From the NCBI GenBank assembly GCA_946482165.1, contig CAMLQS010000160.1, positions 1-10,959 of the forward strand: a stretch of 10,959 bases of DNA, written 5' to 3'. Source of the DNA: an uncultured Verrucomicrobiota bacterium (lineage in GTDB: Bacteria > Verrucomicrobiota > Verrucomicrobiae > Opitutales > Opitutaceae). The translations under genes and the position numbers were made by a program. Positions 213-10,838 of the stretch are shown here, piece after piece; position 1 is the stretch's first letter; the number at the start of each line of letters is the position of its first letter. Below the pieces are notes generated by a model. It made no database searches. It saw only the letters and a list, made by a program, of their open reading frames with translations, and was not told the origin of the DNA.

Positions 213-561
213 AATGGCGGAAATGAAACCGGTGATGTGTTTTTCTCGGCGGGATCCGTTTCATGCACAAATATTTCGCTCGGTGGGGCGGTTTGACCCA
301 CGGCTAGGGAGGATGCATGAACAAGTGCCCGACCAGTTGATCGCAACGGGTGGCGAAGGAGGTGCGCGGAGGAATCAAGCGGATCTTTTCGGGCTCCAGC
401 GCGCGAAGCCGGTCACCGAAGAAATCGAAGCGTCGTAATGTTCATTCCAATACTTGCGTCAACGTGGGGCTGAGACGTCCTGAAATTCCCATTTTGGTAG
501 CACGCAAAAGGTGGACGTGATTATCTGCGGGGGGGCACTGCGGGAGGTTCGGAAGCGGCAT
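213..561 (-). pseudogene. AraC-family regulator remnant (N-terminal half only), paralogue of the gene at 5660-6448
   Basis: Minus-strand translation in pieces matches the intact regulator at 5660-6448. MPLPNL matches its start, PQIITSTFCVLPKWEFQDVSAP matches residues 20-41 in two overlapping parts, and LEPEKIRLIPPRTSFATRCDQL plus VGHLFMH match residues 64-92. Then APPSEIFVHETDPAEK matches residues 101-116. The reading is broken. There is an in-frame TGA at 459-461, a TAG at 304-306 after a one-base loss, another one-base loss near 405-415, a net loss of about 26 bp near 535-550, and a shift near 225-240. The helix-turn-helix half is absent: homology ends near 213, where delta-60 sequence begins. 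The gene cannot make a regulator. The intact copy is in the same window and the same orientation. Confidence 0.85.
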
Positions 562-622
562 GGTTTTGTGCACAAAATAATGCGGCGCGTCCATCGCCTA
601 CGCCGCTTCCCGGGGTTATGAT
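216..622 (+). repeat. Degenerate direct repeat, copy 1 (partner 6074-6512): regulator 5' half plus promoter
   Basis: This segment aligns along its whole length with 6074-6512, in the same orientation. Strong blocks are the 34 nt from 499 (one mismatch with 6360-6393) and the 36 nt 569-604 (two mismatches with 6458-6493). Shared shorter words include TTTCATGCACAAATAT (260-275 versus 6118-6133) and TATGATA just before both downstream genes. The repeat spans coding remnant and non-coding DNA alike. It is therefore a true segmental duplication and not a shared protein motif. No inverted ends or transposase accompany it. Confidence 0.85.
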
Positions 623-695
623 ATGCGTTTTCTCCCTTGTGCGGGCTGTGGAGGCGTTGGCGTGTCCAGTTCCTCCGCGAGCTCGGGTTTGCACG
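562..695 (+). promoter_or_regulatory. Promoter region of the large GH128-like gene, duplicated from the GH29 promoter, with a 14-bp palindrome at 564-577
   Basis: The left part (562-622) copies the divergent promoter at 6449-6512. A perfect 14-bp palindrome, TTTTGTGCACAAAA, lies at 564-577; the partner site has one base changed (TTTTATGCACAAAA). A TATGAT element at 617-622 resembles a -10 box and is kept in both copies at nearly the same distance (48 versus 49 nt) from the TGCACAAAA word. No convincing -35 box precedes it, which would fit a promoter that needs an activator. If TATGAT is the -10, transcription starts near 629 and leaves about 67 nt of leader. No Shine-Dalgarno sequence lies before the ATG at 696. 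Operator and promoter roles are inferred. Confidence 0.5.
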
Positions 696-3600
696 ATGAA
701 TATTCTCCGTTCTCTCCTCTTTATCGTCTTCAACTCGGCCCTCGTTGGTGGTGGCGCCTTGGCGCAATCCGCTCCGCCGCCGATTAACTTGAGTCGATAC
801 ATGCCGGTCTCGGCGAGTTCCGGCTCCGGCACGGCGAAATACGCGGTCGACGGACTGGTGTGCGAGGAGTCCAGCTGGGTCAGCGCTAGCGTGACGACCG
901 CGCATTGGCTCGAAGTCGCCTTGCCCGGCCCGTTTGAGATTGGCGGCGCCAATCTCGTTTCGGGCAAGTGGGACTCCGCCGCCGTCGCCAATTTTGTCCT
1001 GCAATACTGGACCGGGTCCGGTTGGGCCGATATCCCCGGAGCCGTCGTCACGGGCAACATTAGGACGCAGCGACAGATCGTTTTCTCCAATCCCGTCACC
1101 ACCGACCGTATCCGTTTCTATTCCGACGACGATGGGGTGGCCTTGATCAAGGAGCTGGCGGTTTTTCCGCCGAAGAGCGACGGCGCCGCCTACCCGATAG
1201 GCACCGGGATAGACCTTCGCTCCGGCATGTTGCCCAAAATCACCGCCAGCAGCCAAAACGCCGCCGGCCAGCGTCCTTATCTCGCTTATGACGGCTACGC
1301 GGAATGGGACTCGCGCTGGATCAGCGCCAACGTCACCACCCAGCATTGGCTGGAATACGCCTTCGTGAAGGAGCGCGAGCTCGCCTACGCCCACGTTTAC
1401 ACCGGCCTCGGCAACGCGTCCCCCGTCGCCAATTACACCCTCCAATATTGGAACGCCGCCACGAGCGCCTGGGTGAATATCCCCGGCGGGAGCGTCAGCG
1501 GAAACACGTCCACGGAAAACCTGCTAACGTTCGGCGCCACTATCCGCACCACCCGTGTTCGACTCGTTTCCGACGACGACGGTAACATCCGGGTGAAGGA
1601 ACTGGTGTTTCTCCCGCCCAACGGAGGCGTCGGCTACCCGCGCGGCACCGGCGTGATCTTCGGTTCTCCGCCGAGCCAGCGCTGGAACGACTACTCGGAC
1701 AAATTCTACAACCTGAAGAATCGCGCGGCGGGGCTAAACCTGCGGACCTCGCCCGAGGGACGCGTGACGGTGGAAACGGCCGACGCGTCGTTTTCCCAGC
1801 AATACAACATCCTGCTCAACATCGGCACCGACACCTACCGAATTTGCAATCGGGCCAACGAACAGTGCCTGGAGGTCGCGGGCGGCTCGCTTTCGCCGGG
1901 CGCTTCGATTCGCGAGGCCGATTACCGCGCATTGCCCTACCAGCAATGGCGGCTGGTCGCGGCCGGCGCCTATTTTGAGTTGGTCAACGTTTACAGCGGG
2001 CTGCTGCTTACCGTGAACGGGACGGGATCACTCGCCGGAGGCGGCCTCCTCCAGCTCGCACGCAACGGCGGCTACATGCAGCATTGGTCCTTCCCCTACG
2101 TCACCCATTTCCCGAAAAAAGGCAACACATGGGCGAACGTCACCGGCGACTTCGTCGAGAAATACGGGAGTTCGCATTGGTATGGCTGGGGCCTCGATCC
2201 CTTCGGGGGCGGCCAGGAAGCCGCCTCGCCCGCCAGCACCGCCAACGATCCCACCCATTTCCAGCCCATGCTATGGAACAACGCCCAGTCGCGCCTCGAG
2301 CAGCTGGTCCTGATCCGGCCCGAATGGGCGGTGGCCGACGTCCCGAAGTATCTGATCGGCTACAACGAACCCAGCCACGGCGACCAGGCCAACATATCCG
2401 TTCAGGCCGGCATCGACGAATGGAGTCGCATGGAACAGGTGAACCTCCCTCTGGTCGCGCCCCAGTTCGACTGGTATGGCGACACCTGGACGGACGAGTT
2501 CATGACCCGCGGCGTCAACGCCATGGGACTTCGCGTGGACCAGGGCGGCGGCCACATCTACCCGACCAGCGCCTCCACCAATTTCGACACCTTCGTCAAC
2601 AACGCCACCAACGGCTACAACGCCCAGGGCCAGCGCGTGCAATGGGTCACGGAGTGGAACTGGGTCAACTGGAGCGGCCCCGCCACCTGGACCGCCGATC
2701 AGGTCTACGGCATCATGGCCGAGACCCTGTGGCGCTTCGAGACCCAGCCGCAGGTCGCCCGACACGAATTTTTCGCCTTTAGCGCATGGTGGCCCAACGG
2801 CGCGCCCGGCGCCTTGGAGAAGAACGGCATGCTGCCGCTTGGCCGCCTCTACGCCGCCTGGGATGGCGATCAACAAGTCCGCGAAAACGTCTGGTATCAT
2901 GTCCACAACCGCTCCTCTCGCGTTCATATGCGAAACACCGGCGGCACCCCCGGCCCCACATCCATCGACACCGTGGACTCCTCCGTGAACTGGTATCTGT
3001 CGCCCGCCTCCGCCGGGAGATATCATCTCGTCGCCTCCGACGGTCGGCGTCTGGCCAGCAACGGCACCGCCGTCACGCTCGCTCCGGCCGGCACCACCGG
3101 CACCGCCGTCGAATGGGCGCTCACGCCCTGGCAATACGGTTGGCACTACATCGATCACCCCTCCACCGGTAAACGACTGGACTCCGACGCCTCCACCGGC
3201 GCGCTGGCTATGTATGGAAATACAAATACATGGGAGACCATGCGCTGGCGTTTCATCAAGGTTTACGACGCCGCCACCACCGGCTCCGCATGGACAAGCG
3301 ACGTGGACGGCGCCTGGGGCGATGCCGCCCGCTGGAGCGGTTTCGCCGCCGCCGGCGCGGGCTACACGGCCGATTTCGGAAGCATAGACATCACCCGCGA
3401 CCGCACCGTCACCCTCGACTCCACCCGCACCCTCGGCACCCTCAAATTTGGCGACCTCAGCGGAGCCCAGAACTGGACCCTCGCCTCCGGCGGCCCCGCA
3501 CTTTCCCTCGAAAACCGGCCCGGCTACCGCCCGGCCATTTCGGTCGCCAACGGCGAGGCGACCGTCTCCGCGTCTCTCTCCGGTGCGCGGGGTTTCGACA

Positions 3601-5636
3601 AACTGGGCTCCGGCACGCTGATCCTCGCCGGCGACAACTCAGGCCTCGCCGGCACGGTCCATCTCGACACAGCCAGCACCTCGGCGCAGTCCGGCATCGT
3701 CCGCGCCGCGCATCCCGACGCGCTCTCCGGCGCGAGCCTGCTCCGCATCCGCAACACCAATTCCGGCACGTCCACGCTGCAACTCGACGGGACGAGCGGC
3801 GGCGTGTTCATCCCGGCCAAACTGGAGGTGAATTGCCGCAACAACGATGTGCCCACCATCCAGAACCTTGCCGGCGTCAACATCCTCTCCGGCGACATCG
3901 ACCTGAATGTCGGCGGCGACCGCTTCAACCTCCGCTCGGATGCCGGCGTTCTCGTTTTGTCAGGCAGAAACAAATACATCGGCACCCTGACCGGTGCCCG
4001 TATCCACGCGTTCTCCGGTGCGGGCGATCACCTCGTCTCGGGTGCTATCCTCAACTCCGACAACGGCGCGCCGCTCAGTCTCAACAAGACAGGAACCGGC
4101 ACCCTCACGCTAGCCGCGCAAAACGCCTACAACGGCGCGACCACCGTCTCCGGCGGCACTCTGGTCGTGAATGGCGCCACCGGGGCGGGCCCCACCACCC
4201 TCGCTTCGGGCGCCACCCTCGCGGGTCGCGGCCTGGTCCGCGCCGCCCTGACCGCCCAAAGCGGCTCGACCCTCCGCGTCGGCGGCGTCACGCCGACCAT
4301 CCTTGCGGAAGCGCTTGTCGACGACTTTTCCGGCAACCTCTCCGCCTATGCCGCCACCCGGCTCTTCGACGCGAACGGCGCCGCGGCCAACACCAGCGAC
4401 TGGCGCACCGACGGCAATGCCCTGATGATTCGCACCGCGGTCTTTGACGGCGCGGAGCAGCTCGCGCTCACCCGAACGGATGTCTCCCTCGGCGTCGGCC
4501 AGGAACTGCGCGTGGACTACGCGCACGACCAGCTCGGGTCGCAGGACATCGGCCTCTACGTCGGCGCGACTGCCCCCGCCCCGGGGGTGCGAGCGGACTA
4601 CGTGACCATCCACGTCCGCGACAACGGCGAGGTTTACAGCCGCGGCTTTGACGGCACCACCGAGTTGCCATCGGCCGGTGGCTCCCGGCCCGCGCCCGAC
4701 CGGCTGTTCATCGCGCGCCTCTCGCCCTTCACCTTTGAGACCGGCTACTATAGGCGGGGCGTGCGCTCCGTCGTCGCCACCCGGACGCTGGCCAGCGCCG
4801 CCGTCGGCTCAGTGATCGGCATCTACGCCGACATTCGCTCGGCCGGGCTTCGCGGCAGCCTCGATGATTTGACGATCTACGACCCGCACCGCGCCGCCGT
4901 GCCGGATGTGTTGACGGTGCAGGGCGACCTCGCACTGGCCGCCGGGGCGACCCTGGAAATGGATCTCTTCAGCCCGACGCTGCACGATAAACTTTCGGTG
5001 GGCGCACGCTTCGACGCGACCGGCGCGCTGCGCCTGCGCTTTTTCGCGGATGCACCCGCACCGGCCGCAGGCGACCGCTATGTCTTGTTCGAGGCCGCCA
5101 CGCTCGGCACGATCAACTTCTCCAGCCTCGACCTACCATCGCTCGCTCCCGGACTGGCCTGGGACACCAGCGCCCTCGGCGGCGGCGTGCTCGATATCGT
5201 ATCTAACCAGGCGACCTATCTGGGTTGGGCGCAAAGCCACCCCTTCGCCGTTGGCATGGGCGAGCCGACCATCGACGCGGACGCGGACGGTTTCGCCAAC
5301 GTCTTGGAATGGCTGTCAGGCACGGACCCGCTCGACCCCGGCAGCGTTTCCCGGCCGACGGTGATCGTGCGAACCGGGACGGAGCTCGGACTCCCGACAA
5401 ATGATTGCCACATCACGCTGCAAGCGCGTCTGCGGAAAGACCGCGTCGGCGTGACCATCATCCCTCAGGCATCCGACGATCTCGACACTTTGGACGCCAG
5501 CCCCGTCAACGTATCCCAGGCCGGCGCGGCGATCAGCGATGGAGACTTTGAACTCGTCACCTATTACTGCACGACGCCGCTCGGGGACCGCCCAGGCGAG
5601 CGTGTGTTCATGCGGCTGAAAATCAGCATTCCGTAA
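696..5636 (+). CDS. Secreted multimodular GH128/Asl1-like glycoside hydrolase with discoidin, ricin-type lectin and PATR repeats
   Basis: 1646 aa. The start is the ATG at 696 and not the in-frame ATG at 618, because residues 1-23 then form a signal peptide ending ALA. Residues about 30-160 and 170-308 are two tandem F5/8 type C (discoidin-like) domains that share VANxxLQYW and xSDDDG words. About 330-470 is a ricin-type beta-trefoil with QQWRL and QHWSF. About 472-730 is the catalytic domain of the Glyco_hydro_cc (Asl1/GH128) type. It has GYNEPS (E558, likely acid/base), GGGHIYP and VTEWNW (E653, likely nucleophile). About 732-857 is a second lectin-like region with HHIDHPSTGKRL-like text (actual WHYIDHPSTGKRL). 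About 860-1200 carries PATR units such as KTGTGTLTLAAQNAYNGATT. About 1205-1397 looks like a jelly roll. DADADGFANVLEWLSGTDPLDP at 1527-1547, split here as DADADG and GTDPLDP, is calcium-binding-like. Characterised GH128 enzymes cut beta-1,3-glucans; the substrate here is unknown. It is downstream of the duplicated promoter. Confidence 0.85.
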   Translation: MNILRSLLFIVFNSALVGGGALAQSAPPPINLSRYMPVSASSGSGTAKYAVDGLVCEESSWVSASVTTAHWLEVALPGPFEIGGANLVSGKWDSAAVANFVLQYWTGSGWADIPGAVVTGNIRTQRQIVFSNPVTTDRIRFYSDDDGVALIKELAVFPPKSDGAAYPIGTGIDLRSGMLPKITASSQNAAGQRPYLAYDGYAEWDSRWISANVTTQHWLEYAFVKERELAYAHVYTGLGNASPVANYTLQYWNAATSAWVNIPGGSVSGNTSTENLLTFGATIRTTRVRLVSDDDGNIRVKELVFLPPNGGVGYPRGTGVIFGSPPSQRWNDYSDKFYNLKNRAAGLNLRTSPEGRVTVETADASFSQQYNILLNIGTDTYRICNRANEQCLEVAGGSLSPGASIREADYRALPYQQWRLVAAGAYFELVNVYSGLLLTVNGTGSLAGGGLLQLARNGGYMQHWSFPYVTHFPKKGNTWANVTGDFVEKYGSSHWYGWGLDPFGGGQEAASPASTANDPTHFQPMLWNNAQSRLEQLVLIRPEWAVADVPKYLIGYNEPSHGDQANISVQAGIDEWSRMEQVNLPLVAPQFDWYGDTWTDEFMTRGVNAMGLRVDQGGGHIYPTSASTNFDTFVNNATNGYNAQGQRVQWVTEWNWVNWSGPATWTADQVYGIMAETLWRFETQPQVARHEFFAFSAWWPNGAPGALEKNGMLPLGRLYAAWDGDQQVRENVWYHVHNRSSRVHMRNTGGTPGPTSIDTVDSSVNWYLSPASAGRYHLVASDGRRLASNGTAVTLAPAGTTGTAVEWALTPWQYGWHYIDHPSTGKRLDSDASTGALAMYGNTNTWETMRWRFIKVYDAATTGSAWTSDVDGAWGDAARWSGFAAAGAGYTADFGSIDITRDRTVTLDSTRTLGTLKFGDLSGAQNWTLASGGPALSLENRPGYRPAISVANGEATVSASLSGARGFDKLGSGTLILAGDNSGLAGTVHLDTASTSAQSGIVRAAHPDALSGASLLRIRNTNSGTSTLQLDGTSGGVFIPAKLEVNCRNNDVPTIQNLAGVNILSGDIDLNVGGDRFNLRSDAGVLVLSGRNKYIGTLTGARIHAFSGAGDHLVSGAILNSDNGAPLSLNKTGTGTLTLAAQNAYNGATTVSGGTLVVNGATGAGPTTLASGATLAGRGLVRAALTAQSGSTLRVGGVTPTILAEALVDDFSGNLSAYAATRLFDANGAAANTSDWRTDGNALMIRTAVFDGAEQLALTRTDVSLGVGQELRVDYAHDQLGSQDIGLYVGATAPAPGVRADYVTIHVRDNGEVYSRGFDGTTELPSAGGSRPAPDRLFIARLSPFTFETGYYRRGVRSVVATRTLASAAVGSVIGIYADIRSAGLRGSLDDLTIYDPHRAAVPDVLTVQGDLALAAGATLEMDLFSPTLHDKLSVGARFDATGALRLRFFADAPAPAAGDRYVLFEAATLGTINFSSLDLPSLAPGLAWDTSALGGGVLDIVSNQATYLGWAQSHPFAVGMGEPTIDADADGFANVLEWLSGTDPLDPGSVSRPTVIVRTGTELGLPTNDCHITLQARLRKDRVGVTIIPQASDDLDTLDASPVNVSQAGAAISDGDFELVTYYCTTPLGDRPGERVFMRLKISIP

Positions 5637-5659: not shown

Positions 5660-6448
5660 TCATCGCCGTCGAAAGGCGGCCGGCCCCACGTTCATTATCC
5701 GACGAAACACGCGTGTGAAATGGTATCGATCACAGAAGCCGGTCTCCTCCGCGATATCCGTGATGCTCTTGCGGCCTGAAAGCAGAAGGCCGCAGGCGCG
5801 TTCTATGCGGAGGCGCAGTCTATATTGATGCGGTGTTTGGCCGGTGGCGTGACGGAACTTCTTCACAAACGCGTTCGTGTTCATGCCCGCGGCACGCGCG
5901 AGATCGGCGTTGTTTCCCGAATCATCCCTGAGGCTCCGCAAGGTCAGTTCGATCTTCGGATCGGGCACGCGCCCGCTCCAGAAATCGCGTGGGATTCGGG
6001 CGAGGGCCTGATGAACAAGTGCCTGGGATAAAAAGGACACCTCCAGGCCCGGGGGACGGTTTGAATCGCCCAGCGCGGAGATGAATCCGGCGATGGTGTG
6101 TTTTTCGTCGGGATTCGTTTCATGCACAAATATCTGCCCCGGTGGCGCGCTTTGATCCAGGGCCAGCGCGAAATGCATGAACAGGTGCCCGACCGGTCGA
6201 TCACAATGGGTGGCAAAGGATGTGTGCGGGGGAATCAACAGAATCTTCCCGGGCTCCAGTTCGTGACGCCGGACTCCGATGATGATCGAGGCGCCTGGGC
6301 GATCGTTCCAATACCAGCGCCAGTAGGGCGCCGAGAGGTCCTGGAACTCCCATTTCAGCAGCACGCAAAAGGCGGACGTGATTATCTGCGGGGTCACTGC
6401 GGTAGGGGCCTCGCGCCAGCGTTCATGCAAGAGATTCGGAAGCTGCAT
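5660..6448 (-). CDS. AraC-family transcriptional regulator
   Basis: 262 aa, cytoplasmic DNA-binding regulator. Residues about 40-115 look like a cupin-type sugar-sensing domain, with LEPGKILLIPPHTSF and HLFMHFAL. Residues about 170-262 are the AraC/XylS double helix-turn-helix. ADLARAAGMNTNAFVKKFRH holds the first recognition helix, and ITDIAEETGFCDRYHFTRVF followed by GPAAFR is the second-helix signature. The length is typical of the family. The ATG at 6446-6448 sits inside an 18-bp inverted repeat and lacks a Shine-Dalgarno sequence. The gene diverges from the GH29-GH31 pair across 75 bp and converges on the GH128-like gene with a 23-nt gap. By position it most likely activates the GH29-GH31 unit in response to a sugar, possibly also itself and the GH128-like gene. 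The ligand cannot be told from sequence. Confidence 0.93.
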   Translation of the reverse strand: MQLPNLLHERWREAPTAVTPQIITSAFCVLLKWEFQDLSAPYWRWYWNDRPGASIIIGVRRHELEPGKILLIPPHTSFATHCDRPVGHLFMHFALALDQSAPPGQIFVHETNPDEKHTIAGFISALGDSNRPPGLEVSFLSQALVHQALARIPRDFWSGRVPDPKIELTLRSLRDDSGNNADLARAAGMNTNAFVKKFRHATGQTPHQYRLRLRIERACGLLLSGRKSITDIAEETGFCDRYHFTRVFRRIMNVGPAAFRRR

Positions 6449-6512
6449 AATTTTTTATGCACAAAATAATACGGCGCGTCCATCGCCGACGCCACGCCAC
6501 AAGAGGTATGAT
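6074..6512 (+). repeat. Direct repeat, copy 2 (intact partner of 216-622)
   Basis: This covers roughly the first 125 codons of the intact AraC gene (antisense) and the divergent promoter. It is about 30 bp longer than copy 1 because of small deletions in copy 1. Since the reading frame is intact here, this copy is probably the parent. Confidence 0.85.
6444..6461. promoter_or_regulatory. Perfect inverted repeat over the regulator start codon, likely autoregulatory operator
   Basis: TGCATAA-TTTT-TTATGCA is a perfect inverted repeat with 7-bp arms and a 4-bp spacer. It includes the regulator's ATG (6446-6448, minus). A TATTAT box on the minus strand (6466-6471) lies just beyond it and could be the regulator's -10 element. 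A protein bound here would overlap the start of transcription and translation. In the degenerate copy the left arm is altered (CGGCATGG), so this palindrome is lost there while the neighbouring TGCACAAAA word is kept. The operator role is inferred. Confidence 0.45.
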
Positions 6513-6523
6513 ACCCGTCCCAA
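6449..6523. promoter_or_regulatory. Divergent promoter between AraC regulator and GH29-GH31 unit
   Basis: This 75-bp region holds the words shared with 562-622: TGCACAAAATAAT, a GC-rich block ending ATCGCC, and TATGATA at 6507-6513. TATGAT at 6507-6512 is five of six to the -10 consensus. It is only 11 nt from the GH29 ATG, so if used the message would have a very short leader. The word AAGAGG at 6501-6506 is 17 nt from the ATG, too far for a normal ribosome site. The minus-strand TATTAT at 6466-6471 is the candidate -10 for the regulator. Confidence 0.5.
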
Positions 6524-8188
6524 ATGAAACTCCTCTTCGCCCTGACCTTATCCCTCGGCATCGGGGCTTCCGGCGCCTTGGCCTCCAATACTTCCATCCC
6601 CTCCGAAATGGCTCCGGCGCATCGGGTCGAAAACCCCGCCGAGCCCGCCGCGCCCGGCCCCTTTCAGCCCACCTGGGAGTCCCTGCGCGCCTACGGCCGA
6701 GCTCCCGACTGGTTTCGCGACGCCAAGTTCGGGATCTGGGCGCACTGGGGCCCCCAGTGCCAGCCCGAGGCGGGCGACTGGTATGCCCGCCACATGTATT
6801 CGGAGGGTCATCGGCAGAACAAACTCCACCTCGAACGCTACGGCCACCCGTCGGAGTTCGGCTTCAAGGACGTGATCAATGCATGGAAGGCCGAAAAATG
6901 GGATCCGGCCCCGCTGGTCGCCTTCTACAAAAAAGTCGGCGCGCGCTACTTCTTCGCGATGGCCAACCATCACGACAACCTCGACCTCTGGGCCAGCAAA
7001 CACCACGAGTGGAACTCCACCCGCGTCGGCCCGAAGAAAGATATTGTCGCCGGCTGGGCCGCCGCCGCCCGCTCCGCTGGCCTTCCCTTCGGGGTCAGCG
7101 TCCACGCCTCCCGCGCCTCCTCCTGGTATGAGGTGTCCCAAGGCGCCGACCGTTCCGGCCCCAAGGCCGGCGTCCCCTACGATGGCAAACTCACCCTCGC
7201 CGACGGCGCGGGCAAATGGTGGGAGGGTCTCGACCCGCAGAGACTCTACGCGCAGACAAAGAATCCCAGCCCCGACTTTGCCAACCTGAACGCGATCTTC
7301 TCTCGCTGGAACTGGAGCGACGGGGCGACCATCCCCGACGCCGACTACTGCCGCGCCTATCATGACCGCACGCTCGACCTGATCAACCAAGCCCAGCCCG
7401 ATCTCGTCTACTTTGACGACACCGCGCTGCCTCTCTGGCCGGTCTCCGACGCCGGGCTCAAGATCGCCGCCCACTTCTACAACTCGAACCTCGCCCGGCG
7501 TGGCGACCCCGGCGTGATCTTTGGCAAAATCCTCGCCGAGGATCAGCTCAATGCCCTGGTTTGGGACATCGAACGCGGCGTCCCGGCCAAGACCCTGGAC
7601 CAGCCCTGGCAAACCTGCACCTGTCTTGGCGACTGGCACTACAGCCGCGGCATCTACCAGCGCGGCCGCTACAAGTCCGCCCGCACCGTCATCCACTTGC
7701 TGGCCGACATCGTCAGCAAGAACGGCAACCTCCTGCTCAGCGTTCCGGTCCGCGGTGATGGCTCCATCGACGAGAAAGAGACCGCCATCCTCGAAAAAGT
7801 CGGCGCATGGATGGAAACCAACGGCGAAGCCATCCATGCCACCCGCCCGTGGCGGGTCTTTGGCGAAGGACCCGCCTCCGAGGGTGCGGCGCTCCACTCC
7901 CAGGGCTTTAACGAGGGCAAGGGCAAGCCCTTCACCCCGGCCGACGTCCGATACACCACATCCAAGGACGGTCGCACACTCTACGTGATCGCGATGGGGG
8001 CCTCCGCCGAGCCGCTCCGTCTTTCCGCCCTCGGCCGCGTCGGCGACGGCCCCCGTGTCGCCTCCGTGTCCGTCCTCGGCCTGCGAAACCCGGTGCGATG
8101 GACCCAGTCCGACACCCACCTCGTCATCGATCCGCTGGATCCCCTCCCGGCCGATTCCCCGGCCGTCGTTTACAAGCTCTCGTTATAA
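6524..8188 (+). CDS. Secreted GH29-family alpha-L-fucosidase
   Basis: 554 aa. The first 20 residues (MKLLFALTLSLGIGASGALA) form a signal peptide, so the enzyme acts in the periplasm or outside. Residues about 45-470 are the GH29 catalytic barrel: WFRDAKFGIWAHWGPQ (63-78) is the entry signature with the fucose-contacting H74, ANHHDNLDLW (147-156) carries the HHD pair, and PDLVYFDD (292-299) supplies the likely nucleophile D298. ADIVSKNGNLLLSVPVRGDG is the closing signature of the domain. The acid/base residue cannot be named safely, as it varies in this family. The last 80 or so residues look like a small beta domain. The family releases terminal alpha-L-fucose with retention. It is the first gene of a pair with GH31, 75 bp from the divergent AraC gene. 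Some GH29 members act on other sugars, so the exact specificity is open. Confidence 0.93.
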   Translation: MKLLFALTLSLGIGASGALASNTSIPSEMAPAHRVENPAEPAAPGPFQPTWESLRAYGRAPDWFRDAKFGIWAHWGPQCQPEAGDWYARHMYSEGHRQNKLHLERYGHPSEFGFKDVINAWKAEKWDPAPLVAFYKKVGARYFFAMANHHDNLDLWASKHHEWNSTRVGPKKDIVAGWAAAARSAGLPFGVSVHASRASSWYEVSQGADRSGPKAGVPYDGKLTLADGAGKWWEGLDPQRLYAQTKNPSPDFANLNAIFSRWNWSDGATIPDADYCRAYHDRTLDLINQAQPDLVYFDDTALPLWPVSDAGLKIAAHFYNSNLARRGDPGVIFGKILAEDQLNALVWDIERGVPAKTLDQPWQTCTCLGDWHYSRGIYQRGRYKSARTVIHLLADIVSKNGNLLLSVPVRGDGSIDEKETAILEKVGAWMETNGEAIHATRPWRVFGEGPASEGAALHSQGFNEGKGKPFTPADVRYTTSKDGRTLYVIAMGASAEPLRLSALGRVGDGPRVASVSVLGLRNPVRWTQSDTHLVIDPLDPLPADSPAVVYKLSL

Positions 8189-8195
8189 ATTCCTC

Positions 8196-10682
8196 ATGCG
8201 AGCGCTGAATCTCATCGTCCTGCTCGCGCTCGCGGGCGTTAAGGTCCCGTCGATCCTAGGCGGTATTCAAATAGCAGATACGTATTCGGACGGCGCCTTG
8301 CTCGCGCTTGACCAAGGGCGGCTGGAAATCCGCTTCGTGACCGACCGCATCGCGCGGGTGCGCGCGACGCCCGACCCCACCTGGTCAGCCCGGCCCAGCC
8401 TGATGCGCGTCGAGGTGGGGGAGCGCCCGGGGAAAATCAGGGTAAAACACGGGGGCGACTCGGTGGAGCTCGCGTCCTCCTTGCTCAAGGTCGTGGTCGA
8501 TGGCGCCACCGGAGCCGTTTCATACCACACCATCGACGGACGACGCTTGCTTTCCGAAAATCCCGATGGGCCACGCCGCTTCGAACGCGTTGACGTCATC
8601 AAGACAGTCGCCGACCCCGCCAGCGTATCCTTGGTGAAAACCGCGGACGGCGAACGCCCCGTCGCCACCCGCCACGTCCGCGCCAAGGACAGGGAGGCTT
8701 GGCAGGCGACGGTGGCGTTTCGCTTTGCTGACGACGAGGTGCTGCAAGGCTTGGGTTTCGACGAGGCCTCGGACCTGGATTTGCGCGGCAAGACCAAGCG
8801 GCTCTATCAACACAACATGCGGGTGGTCATTCCGTCGCTCGTCTCCACTCGCGGATACGGCCTGCTTTTCGACGCCTACTCCGCCATGACCTTTTCCGAC
8901 GGCGACCAGGGCGGCTCGCTGACGTTGGACGTAGTGGAGGATCTCGACTACTACTTCATTCTCGGTCCCGACATGGACGGAGCCGTCGCCGGCTACCGAC
9001 AGCTCACCGGAGGCGCATTGATGCCCTCCCGCTGGGCGCTGGGTTACATCCAGTCGAAGGAACACTACCGCACCCAAAAGGAGTTGGTGGACACGGTGCG
9101 GCAGTTTCGCGACCGCGACATCCCTCTCGATGTCATCGTGCAGGACTGGAACTACTGGAAATCCGGGCAGTGGGGCGGCGACATCGATCCCAAGCGCTAC
9201 CCGGACATCCCGCGCCTGGTCCGGGACCTCCATGCGCTCAATACGCGGCTGATGATCTCCATCTGGCCCAATCCCAGTAAAAAGTCCGCCGCCGGCTCCG
9301 CTCTCCATGTCGGCGGGCACACCCTGGCCGGCTCGCCCTGGACCGATTTCTCCTCCTTCGACGCCCGCAAGGTTTACTGGGATCTGGCGGTGTGGCAGCC
9401 GTTTGGTTGTCACGGGGTGGACGGCTGGTGGTGCGACTCCACCGAGCCCGAGGTCGCCGATTGGGTTGCGCAAAGGCCTCCGGACCACGACGCGGTTAAC
9501 ATCGATGGCCTGGCCCGGATCATCGACCCGCAGTATCTCAACGCCTACGGCTTTTGGAGCGCGCAAGGCATCTTCGAGAACGAACGCGCCTCCCGCCCCG
9601 ACCACCGCGTGCTCAACCTGACACGTTCCGGCTACGCCGGCGGCCAGCGACTGGGCGCCGTGATATGGACGGGCGACGTCACCGCCACCTGGGATACCCT
9701 GGCCAAGGAGGTGTGCTCGTTGCAAAGCATCAGCGCCGCCGGCTACCCCTACGTCACCACCGACGCCGGCGCGTTTTTCGTGAAGACCGACGCGCAGTGG
9801 TTCTGGCGCGGCCACTTCGACCGGGGCGTCGATGACCTTGGCTACCGGGAGCTCTACACGCGCTGGCTCCAGTTCTCGACCATGCTCCCCCTCTTCCGTA
9901 GTCATGGCACGGATACGCCGCGCGAGCCGTGGCGCTTCGGCGAACCCGGAACACCGTTCTACGATGGAGTCCTGGGGGCCATAAATCTGCGCTATCGTCT
10001 GCTGCCCCATTTATATTCCCTGGCCGGGGATGTAGCCCTCCGCGACGCGTCCTGGATACGCTCGGTCGCGTTTTCCTATCCTGACGATCCGATCGCGCGC
10101 GGACTGAAAACCCAGTTCATGGTCGGCCGCTCCCTGCTCGCCGCGCCCGTTTTGCGGCCGACGCTCTTCGGGCCAAACTCCACGCCCCTGGGCGACGCCG
10201 ACACGACCGCGGAAGTCTATCTCCCGGGCAAACACGCGTGGTATGATTTTTGGACCGGAGCGGCGCACGCCGGAGGCCAAACCCTGCGGACACCGACAAC
10301 TCTGGCGCACATGCCGCTCTACGTCCGCGCCGGCTCCATCCTGCCGCTGGGGCCGCGCGTGAGCCATTCCGGCGAGCAGATCGGCGCACCGCTCGAACTG
10401 CGAATTTATCCCGGAGCCGACGCCACGTATTCGCTTTATGAAGACGCCGGCGAGGGCATGGGGTATCAGAAAGACGAATACTCAGTCACGCCTATGGCGT
10501 GGGATGACAGCGCGCGCAAACTGACCATCGGTCCCGTGCGCGGCGGCTACCCGGGACGTCCGACCGAGCGAGAGTTTCGCGTCGTGCTGGTCGCGCCCGG
10601 GCAGGGCTGCGACCTCGGGCAGCCGGCGCATTTCGAGTCGGTTCGTCATTCGGGGGAAATAGCCGTGGTGCACCTGCGCTGA
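8196..10682 (+). CDS. Secreted GH31-family alpha-glycosidase (alpha-xylosidase/alpha-glucosidase type)
   Basis: 828 aa. The ATG at 8196 is chosen over an in-frame ATG at 8055. The later start gives a hydrophobic export signal (MRALNLIVLLALAGV) and avoids a 134-nt overlap with GH29; the cleavage site is unclear. Residues about 25-265 are the N-terminal beta-sandwich with LQGLGFDEASDLDLRGK. About 270-610 is the catalytic barrel: YIQSKEHYRTQKEL, IPLDVIVQDWNYW (309-321), VDGWWCDSTEPE (408-419) with nucleophile D414, and VIWTGDVTATWDTL with likely acid/base D494. About 610-828 are the beta-domains, with VYLPGKHAWYDFWTG and YVRAGSILPLG. The qDWxYW pattern is common in alpha-xylosidase-like GH31 enzymes, but specificity is a guess. 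It is 7 nt behind GH29, so cotranscribed, with no Shine-Dalgarno sequence in the gap; translational coupling is likely. Confidence 0.93.
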   Translation: MRALNLIVLLALAGVKVPSILGGIQIADTYSDGALLALDQGRLEIRFVTDRIARVRATPDPTWSARPSLMRVEVGERPGKIRVKHGGDSVELASSLLKVVVDGATGAVSYHTIDGRRLLSENPDGPRRFERVDVIKTVADPASVSLVKTADGERPVATRHVRAKDREAWQATVAFRFADDEVLQGLGFDEASDLDLRGKTKRLYQHNMRVVIPSLVSTRGYGLLFDAYSAMTFSDGDQGGSLTLDVVEDLDYYFILGPDMDGAVAGYRQLTGGALMPSRWALGYIQSKEHYRTQKELVDTVRQFRDRDIPLDVIVQDWNYWKSGQWGGDIDPKRYPDIPRLVRDLHALNTRLMISIWPNPSKKSAAGSALHVGGHTLAGSPWTDFSSFDARKVYWDLAVWQPFGCHGVDGWWCDSTEPEVADWVAQRPPDHDAVNIDGLARIIDPQYLNAYGFWSAQGIFENERASRPDHRVLNLTRSGYAGGQRLGAVIWTGDVTATWDTLAKEVCSLQSISAAGYPYVTTDAGAFFVKTDAQWFWRGHFDRGVDDLGYRELYTRWLQFSTMLPLFRSHGTDTPREPWRFGEPGTPFYDGVLGAINLRYRLLPHLYSLAGDVALRDASWIRSVAFSYPDDPIARGLKTQFMVGRSLLAAPVLRPTLFGPNSTPLGDADTTAEVYLPGKHAWYDFWTGAAHAGGQTLRTPTTLAHMPLYVRAGSILPLGPRVSHSGEQIGAPLELRIYPGADATYSLYEDAGEGMGYQKDEYSVTPMAWDDSARKLTIGPVRGGYPGRPTEREFRVVLVAPGQGCDLGQPAHFESVRHSGEIAVVHLR

Positions 10683-10725
10683 ATCGCCGGCGCGGCCCTG
10701 ATTCACCCCGCGTCTCCGGAAGTCG

Positions 10726-10738
10726 AGTTACTGTAACT
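10726..10738. repeat. Short palindrome AGTTAC-T-GTAACT
   Basis: Perfect 6-bp arms around a single T, 43 nt after the GH31 stop codon. It is too short and not followed by a T run, so it is not a terminator. A protein-binding site is possible. Confidence 0.35.
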
Positions 10739-10838
10739 TAACCTGGCATTGGACAGTTTGATTCACGCCGGTATCCAACAGTCTGAAGTTTTTTTTCTTG
10801 GTCTGCGGCGAATCAACGCGCGCCCGGAAAACCCCCGC

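Follow-up and report, generated by a model that had tools for sequence, protein, structure and literature searches.

Introduction

The genome of Coraliomargarita akajimensis contains, according to the available part of its description, 42 AraC-family genes and genes for 12 GH29 fucosidases, and AraC control of clustered fucosidases and sulfatases has already been suggested there (PMC3035286). PUL-like fucosidase loci, in which GH29 genes are grouped with those for other glycoside hydrolases, have been reported from Verrucomicrobiota (PMC8857213). None of the words 'AraC', 'regulator' and 'pseudogene' is found in the main text of the latter paper.

The window analysed here is a stretch of 10,959 nucleotides from an uncultured verrucomicrobium, which is probably a polysaccharide degrader, judging from L001, the closest relative with a name, which is an assembly from the Opitutaceae. 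In keeping with the association suggested for C. akajimensis, an AraC-family gene encoding a helix-turn-helix (HTH) domain is divergent to a GH29 gene; in addition, the window has a broken second copy of the AraC gene, none being mentioned in the available part of PMC3035286. Grouping of GH29 with other glycoside hydrolases agrees with the loci in PMC8857213, but the window has a GH128-like neighbour, none of which is named in the available part of that paper. Among the matches listed, no paper title dealt with a regulator of this kind that had been duplicated and broken, in a search that covers little of the subscription literature.

In bacterial pseudogenes that arise from duplicated genes, one paralogue of the pair shows frameshifts, a stop codon and truncation and changes at an accelerated rate. 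The araC remnant described here likewise includes frameshifts, a stop codon and truncation and has changed faster than its paralogue. It differs from such pseudogenes in general in its position next to the 5' end of a gene for an unrelated enzyme; this gene may keep the flank common to both copies.

Gene content of the window

The intact AraC-family regulator P0001 (262 aa; HTH_18 E 3e-21) is encoded at 5660–6448 on the minus strand, and the HTH domain occupies residues 183–262. Divergent from it lies a plus-strand gene for a GH29 α-L-fucosidase (6524–8188; PF01120 E 4e-84), followed on the same strand by a gene for a GH31 family enzyme (8196–10682; PF01055 E 1.5e-75), for which the start at 8196 was our choice within a frame open from 8055. 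A secreted protein, which we take to be GH128-like following the preliminary description, is encoded at 618–5636 on the plus strand and includes Glyco_hydro_cc, ricin-type lectin and PATR repeat matches in Pfam. Its longest frame opens at 618; in 618–800, a signal-peptide-like stretch begins at the ATG at 696, which suggests this codon as the likely true start. The database copy of the protein (P0121) is still shorter, at 1611 aa.

At the left end, a minus-strand open fragment (2–214) runs off the window. It resembles a delta-60 repeat protein (TIGR02608 E 0.043) and scored 13.7 bits against a cut-off of 76.5 bits, the fragment being short and clipped by the window end; no Pfam match was found for it. 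The fragment is without a start of its own and directly abuts the broken end of the araC remnant. From its sequence, it is possibly a second truncated gene.

Structure of the araC remnant

The remnant lies at 213–604 on the minus strand and was defined by blastn, codon projection onto the intact gene and a phylogenetic tree. Comparison of the left end with the AraC region by blastn aligned 217–604 with 6075–6493 with 312 identities in 421 columns (74%; E 4e-77), or 312 in 386 when the 35 gap columns are removed. The Smith-Waterman score was 320, whereas 300 dinucleotide shuffles averaged 23 and did not exceed 31; the trivial match aside, no other self-match was found in the window at E≤1e-3. 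Hence, similarity to an intact paralogue is significant and far above random, and the preliminary description was right in placing a broken second copy of the regulator's 5' half and promoter side 5.9 kb from the intact one. The paired blocks given there, 216–622 and 6074–6512, hold for the segments aligned by blastn; positions 605–622 are beyond the significant alignment.

Codon projection assigned the remnant to codons 1–124 of 262 (up to position 561) together with 43 aligned bases of 5' flank, the broken end lying near 213–216. Relative to the intact gene, 28 nt have been lost at codons 5–14, 2 nt at codons 39/40 and single bases at codons 55, 92 and 118, and there are two gains of 2 nt each; the frame-changing losses noted previously are thus borne out. 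A TGA stop was confirmed at 459–461 (minus strand), at the position of intact codon 43. The second stop noted earlier, at 304–306, is a real TAG triplet, which is in frame owing to the frameshift at codon 92 and is read only if the one-base loss there is left unbridged; one of the two stops is therefore secondary. The remnant lacks an HTH domain, as had been claimed, since its coverage ends at codon 124 and HTH_18 begins at residue 183. The C-terminal HTH_18 domain by which the AraC family is recognised is therefore present in the intact copy and missing from the remnant. A long open frame covering part of the remnant had been described as antisense; the long frames that overlap it (2–346, 459–1445 and 521–1102) are all on the minus strand, the remnant's own. 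With its reading frame destroyed by a stop codon, frame-changing indels and an end at codon 124, as in a pseudogene, the remnant most likely codes for nothing.

Divergence of the two copies

Among the matches listed, there were 120 AraC proteins, including P0001, the window's own; P0002 is 86% identical to it, and none of the remaining 118 exceeds 54%. At 108 comparable residues, the remnant agrees with P0001 at 73 and with P0002 at 67, and P0001 agrees with P0002 at 87. When P0002 was used as the outgroup, 23 changes were specific to the remnant and 3 to the intact copy (relative-rate test, p 9e-5; 17 versus 3, p 0.002, with codons 39–56 excluded). The 23 fall among the 87 sites at which P0001 and P0002 are the same, and four of them affect residues invariant in 30/30 relatives, namely G52, F93, D98 and G104, of which G52 sits within the poorly aligned codons 39–56.

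This imbalance indicates relaxed constraint on the broken copy, though not lifelong, as dN/dS between the two copies is 0.40 (dN 0.17, dS 0.43). A ratio well under 1 means that the copy was not neutral throughout its life and suggests that it was first under selection as a working copy and then decayed. Changes numbered 17/115, 21/115 and 27/111 at the first, second and third codon positions, respectively, a weak third-position bias (27/111 versus 38/230, p 0.11).

In a maximum-likelihood tree (LG+G4, 124 columns) of the remnant and 39 of the proteins P0001–P0040, P0033 being left out for gaps, the remnant paired with P0001 with UFBoot 98. The pair was set apart from the other 38 AraC family rows, with P0002 outside, and the branch lengths were 0.51 for the remnant and 0.055 for the intact copy. 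P0001 and P0002 are different at 21 sites; there, the remnant follows P0001 in 9 cases, P0002 in 3 and neither in 9. Raw identity counts against the preferred explanation, as P0002 is nearer to P0001 (87/108) than the remnant is (73/108). In view of this and the 9/3/9 split, the order of duplication and lineage split hinges on a small number of sites, an alignment of 124 columns and a remnant with a long branch. Subject to this, we infer that the duplication would have postdated the split from P0002, and that two working copies would have existed for some time prior to decay.

Genes adjacent to araC in related genomes

After hand removal of 13 duplicate loci, 50 places with a related AraC gene were compared. 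A GH29 match was divergent to AraC within 1.5 kb in 15 of the 50, a lower bound because several places have little upstream DNA, and in 7 of the 8 closest, including L096, in which the match is partial, weak (E 8e-11) and 1.0 kb away. The eighth closest, L001, has a GH95 fucosidase gene divergent to AraC. A divergent gene missed in the 50-place count, that of L005, was assigned to GH29 by Pfam (PF01120), and Pfam also revealed GH43 beside AraC in L057 and GH97 in L059, several of the neighbouring frames scanned (ten and nine) being without a match. In none of the 50 places was a GH128-like or GH31 match the nearest divergent one.

The best AraC and GH29 pair, on contig 58 of genome G117, is 47% (AraC) and 73% (GH29) identical to that of the window. 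P0002 and the GH29 protein P0175 (85% identical) are both recorded with a longest contig of 192,949 bases. This figure and that of the window's own contig are among at least five common to the AraC and GH29 lists, and only that of the window's own is common to the AraC and GH128-like lists, among the matches listed. Equal figures hint that AraC and GH29 are on one contig.

The preliminary description had proposed looking upstream of GH128-like genes in relatives for an intact AraC gene. None of the window's AraC family was found near 13 distant GH128-like genes (12 stretches examined), which are 25–33% identical to the catalytic part of the window's; upstream DNA was at least 2.5 kb for nine of them and less than 2.5 kb for four. 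The survey thus bears on distant genes only, ten closer relatives (P0122–P0131) being 62–68% identical. Among 372 genomes of the order, no GH128-like gene was detected at E≤1e-60, a threshold that also hides known matches of 29–36% identity, and an empty result of this kind carries no weight. AraC was found at E≤1e-60 in three of 384 genomes of the class, including G001 itself, with 55% as the best identity. When the remnant DNA was compared with 252 genomes from the family to which G001 belongs, only matches of 54–63 bases in three genomes were obtained, one being the AraC gene of G001; plasmid records gave a single match, of 96 query bases inside the GH29 gene.

Since 7 of the 8 closest places have a divergent GH29 match and no AraC neighbour was found for the 13 distant GH128-like genes in the stretches examined, the older arrangement, and the source, was probably the araC–GH29 pair, the remnant being the copy. 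AraC often has a fucosidase gene as its partner in relatives, and a GH128-like match was the nearest divergent one in 0 of 50 places, so that the GH128-like gene is probably a secondary neighbour.

The Kiritimatiellae contig L006 carries three AraC relatives within about 9 kb (9800–10795, 15068–15970 and 17476–18324). Each adjoins a large minus-strand gene (DUF5123, beta-helix, HpiC1-like), and no glycoside hydrolase Pfam match was found in these neighbour genes.

The common 5' flank

The 5' flank at 562–604 corresponds to 6449–6493 and differs from it at 5 of 43 aligned bases (38 matches). It carries a perfect palindrome, TTTTGTGCACAAAA, at 564–577, where the intact copy has TTTTGTGCATAAAA. 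TTTTGTGCACAAAA is the counterpart of a TTGTGTATAAAA-type word seen before AraC relatives. A match to the latter of at least 10 bases in 12 was present upstream of AraC in 17 of the 50 stretches taken from relatives (shuffles gave an expectation of 0.6; 2/50 on the reverse strand), the word having been picked from the very stretches counted and its distance to the start being variable.

In the closest relatives (e.g. L053, L052, L002 and L055), a TTGTGTATAAAA-type word is located a few bases 5' of the start on the AraC sense strand. By this position near the start codon, the word resembles a -10 box as much as an operator; as a -10 box, it would fit a nearly leaderless mRNA. A TTTTGTGCACAAAA-type word may be the araC promoter itself or a putative binding site. 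The view that the palindrome is an operator kept by selection is weakened by the post hoc choice of the word, its variable spacing and its -10-like position.

A TATGATA word at 617–623 (plus strand), a possible -10 box of the GH128-like gene, was recognised by direct reading outside the significant alignment. The same short word, which may or may not be homologous, occurs at 6507–6513 before the GH29 gene.

Discussion

The block at the left end of the window is best explained, with a probability of roughly 0.85, as a pseudogene that consists of the 5' half and 5' flank of a duplicate of the fucosidase-linked AraC gene, copied in this lineage and then decayed. It is a real, well-supported case of ordinary duplication and decay. 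The segment copied to a position upstream of the GH128-like gene would have comprised, as a minimum, araC and most of the intergenic region that separates it from GH29. The copy presumably stayed functional for part of its life, as suggested by the dN/dS value. A deletion would then have removed its 3' half and fused the remainder to the delta-60-like gene fragment, and indels and one stop codon would have accumulated, leaving the intact AraC as the sole source of this regulator within the window, although further copies may exist elsewhere in the genome. Given that the flank persists before the GH128-like gene, the intact AraC may still act on both promoters, on the GH128-like and GH29 sides.

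The extent of the duplicated segment bears on the history suggested previously, in which either a regulator-promoter unit or the whole regulator-plus-enzyme arm was duplicated. The alignment, the lesions, the rates and the tree give good support to a history in which the regulator was copied along with its 5' flank and one of the copies decayed. Tandem duplication of the arm, i.e. araC and GH29, perhaps with GH31, with later deletion of the second enzyme gene or its replacement by the GH128-like gene, could be expected from the occurrence of GH29 and AraC as a unit in the closest relatives, and genome G199, which has three AraC matches at E≤1e-40, indicates that copies of such regulators do accumulate. 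However, similarity ends before the enzyme genes, the two enzymes belong to different Pfam families, and no trace of GH29 or GH31 is found beside the remnant, 217–604 being part of the only significant self-match. Tandem duplication of the arm is thus unlikely. It is quite unlikely, too, that the remnant, rather than being a local copy, arrived by horizontal transfer, possibly together with the GH128-like gene, as a paralogue or a gene from a sister lineage. A dS of 0.43 is not that of a recent event, and the lower raw identity of the remnant than of P0002 to P0001 would suit such an origin; nevertheless, in the tree the remnant joins P0001 and the other 38 family members fall elsewhere, its sister is only 5.9 kb away, and none of the 13 distant GH128-like genes has such an AraC gene within the stretches examined.

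Least probable of these alternatives is that the block serves the GH128-like gene as retained non-coding regulatory DNA, in the form of an operator or leader. The few differences in the flank and retention of the TTTTGTGCACAAAA word are in line with such a role, but conservation of the flank did not significantly exceed that of the dead coding part (5/43 versus 65/341 differences, p 0.30), and the word could be a relic of the araC promoter. It is possible that the surviving AraC controls the GH128-like gene via 562–604. Promoter capture, in which the copied araC–GH29 intergenic block would have given the GH128-like gene an AraC-responsive promoter and the site was kept while the regulator decayed, is a tentative proposal and on the unlikely side. 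If true, it would have added a new enzyme to the fucose regulon.

The locus illustrates clearly that a regulator-enzyme pair can be duplicated and then lose one of the regulators. Such genomes can hold dozens of AraC genes, 42 being given for one in the available part of its description (PMC3035286). The main interest lies in the GH128-like gene, which may have inherited part of its promoter from the remnant; if the retained flank still works, events of this kind would offer a route for an enzyme gene into an existing regulon.
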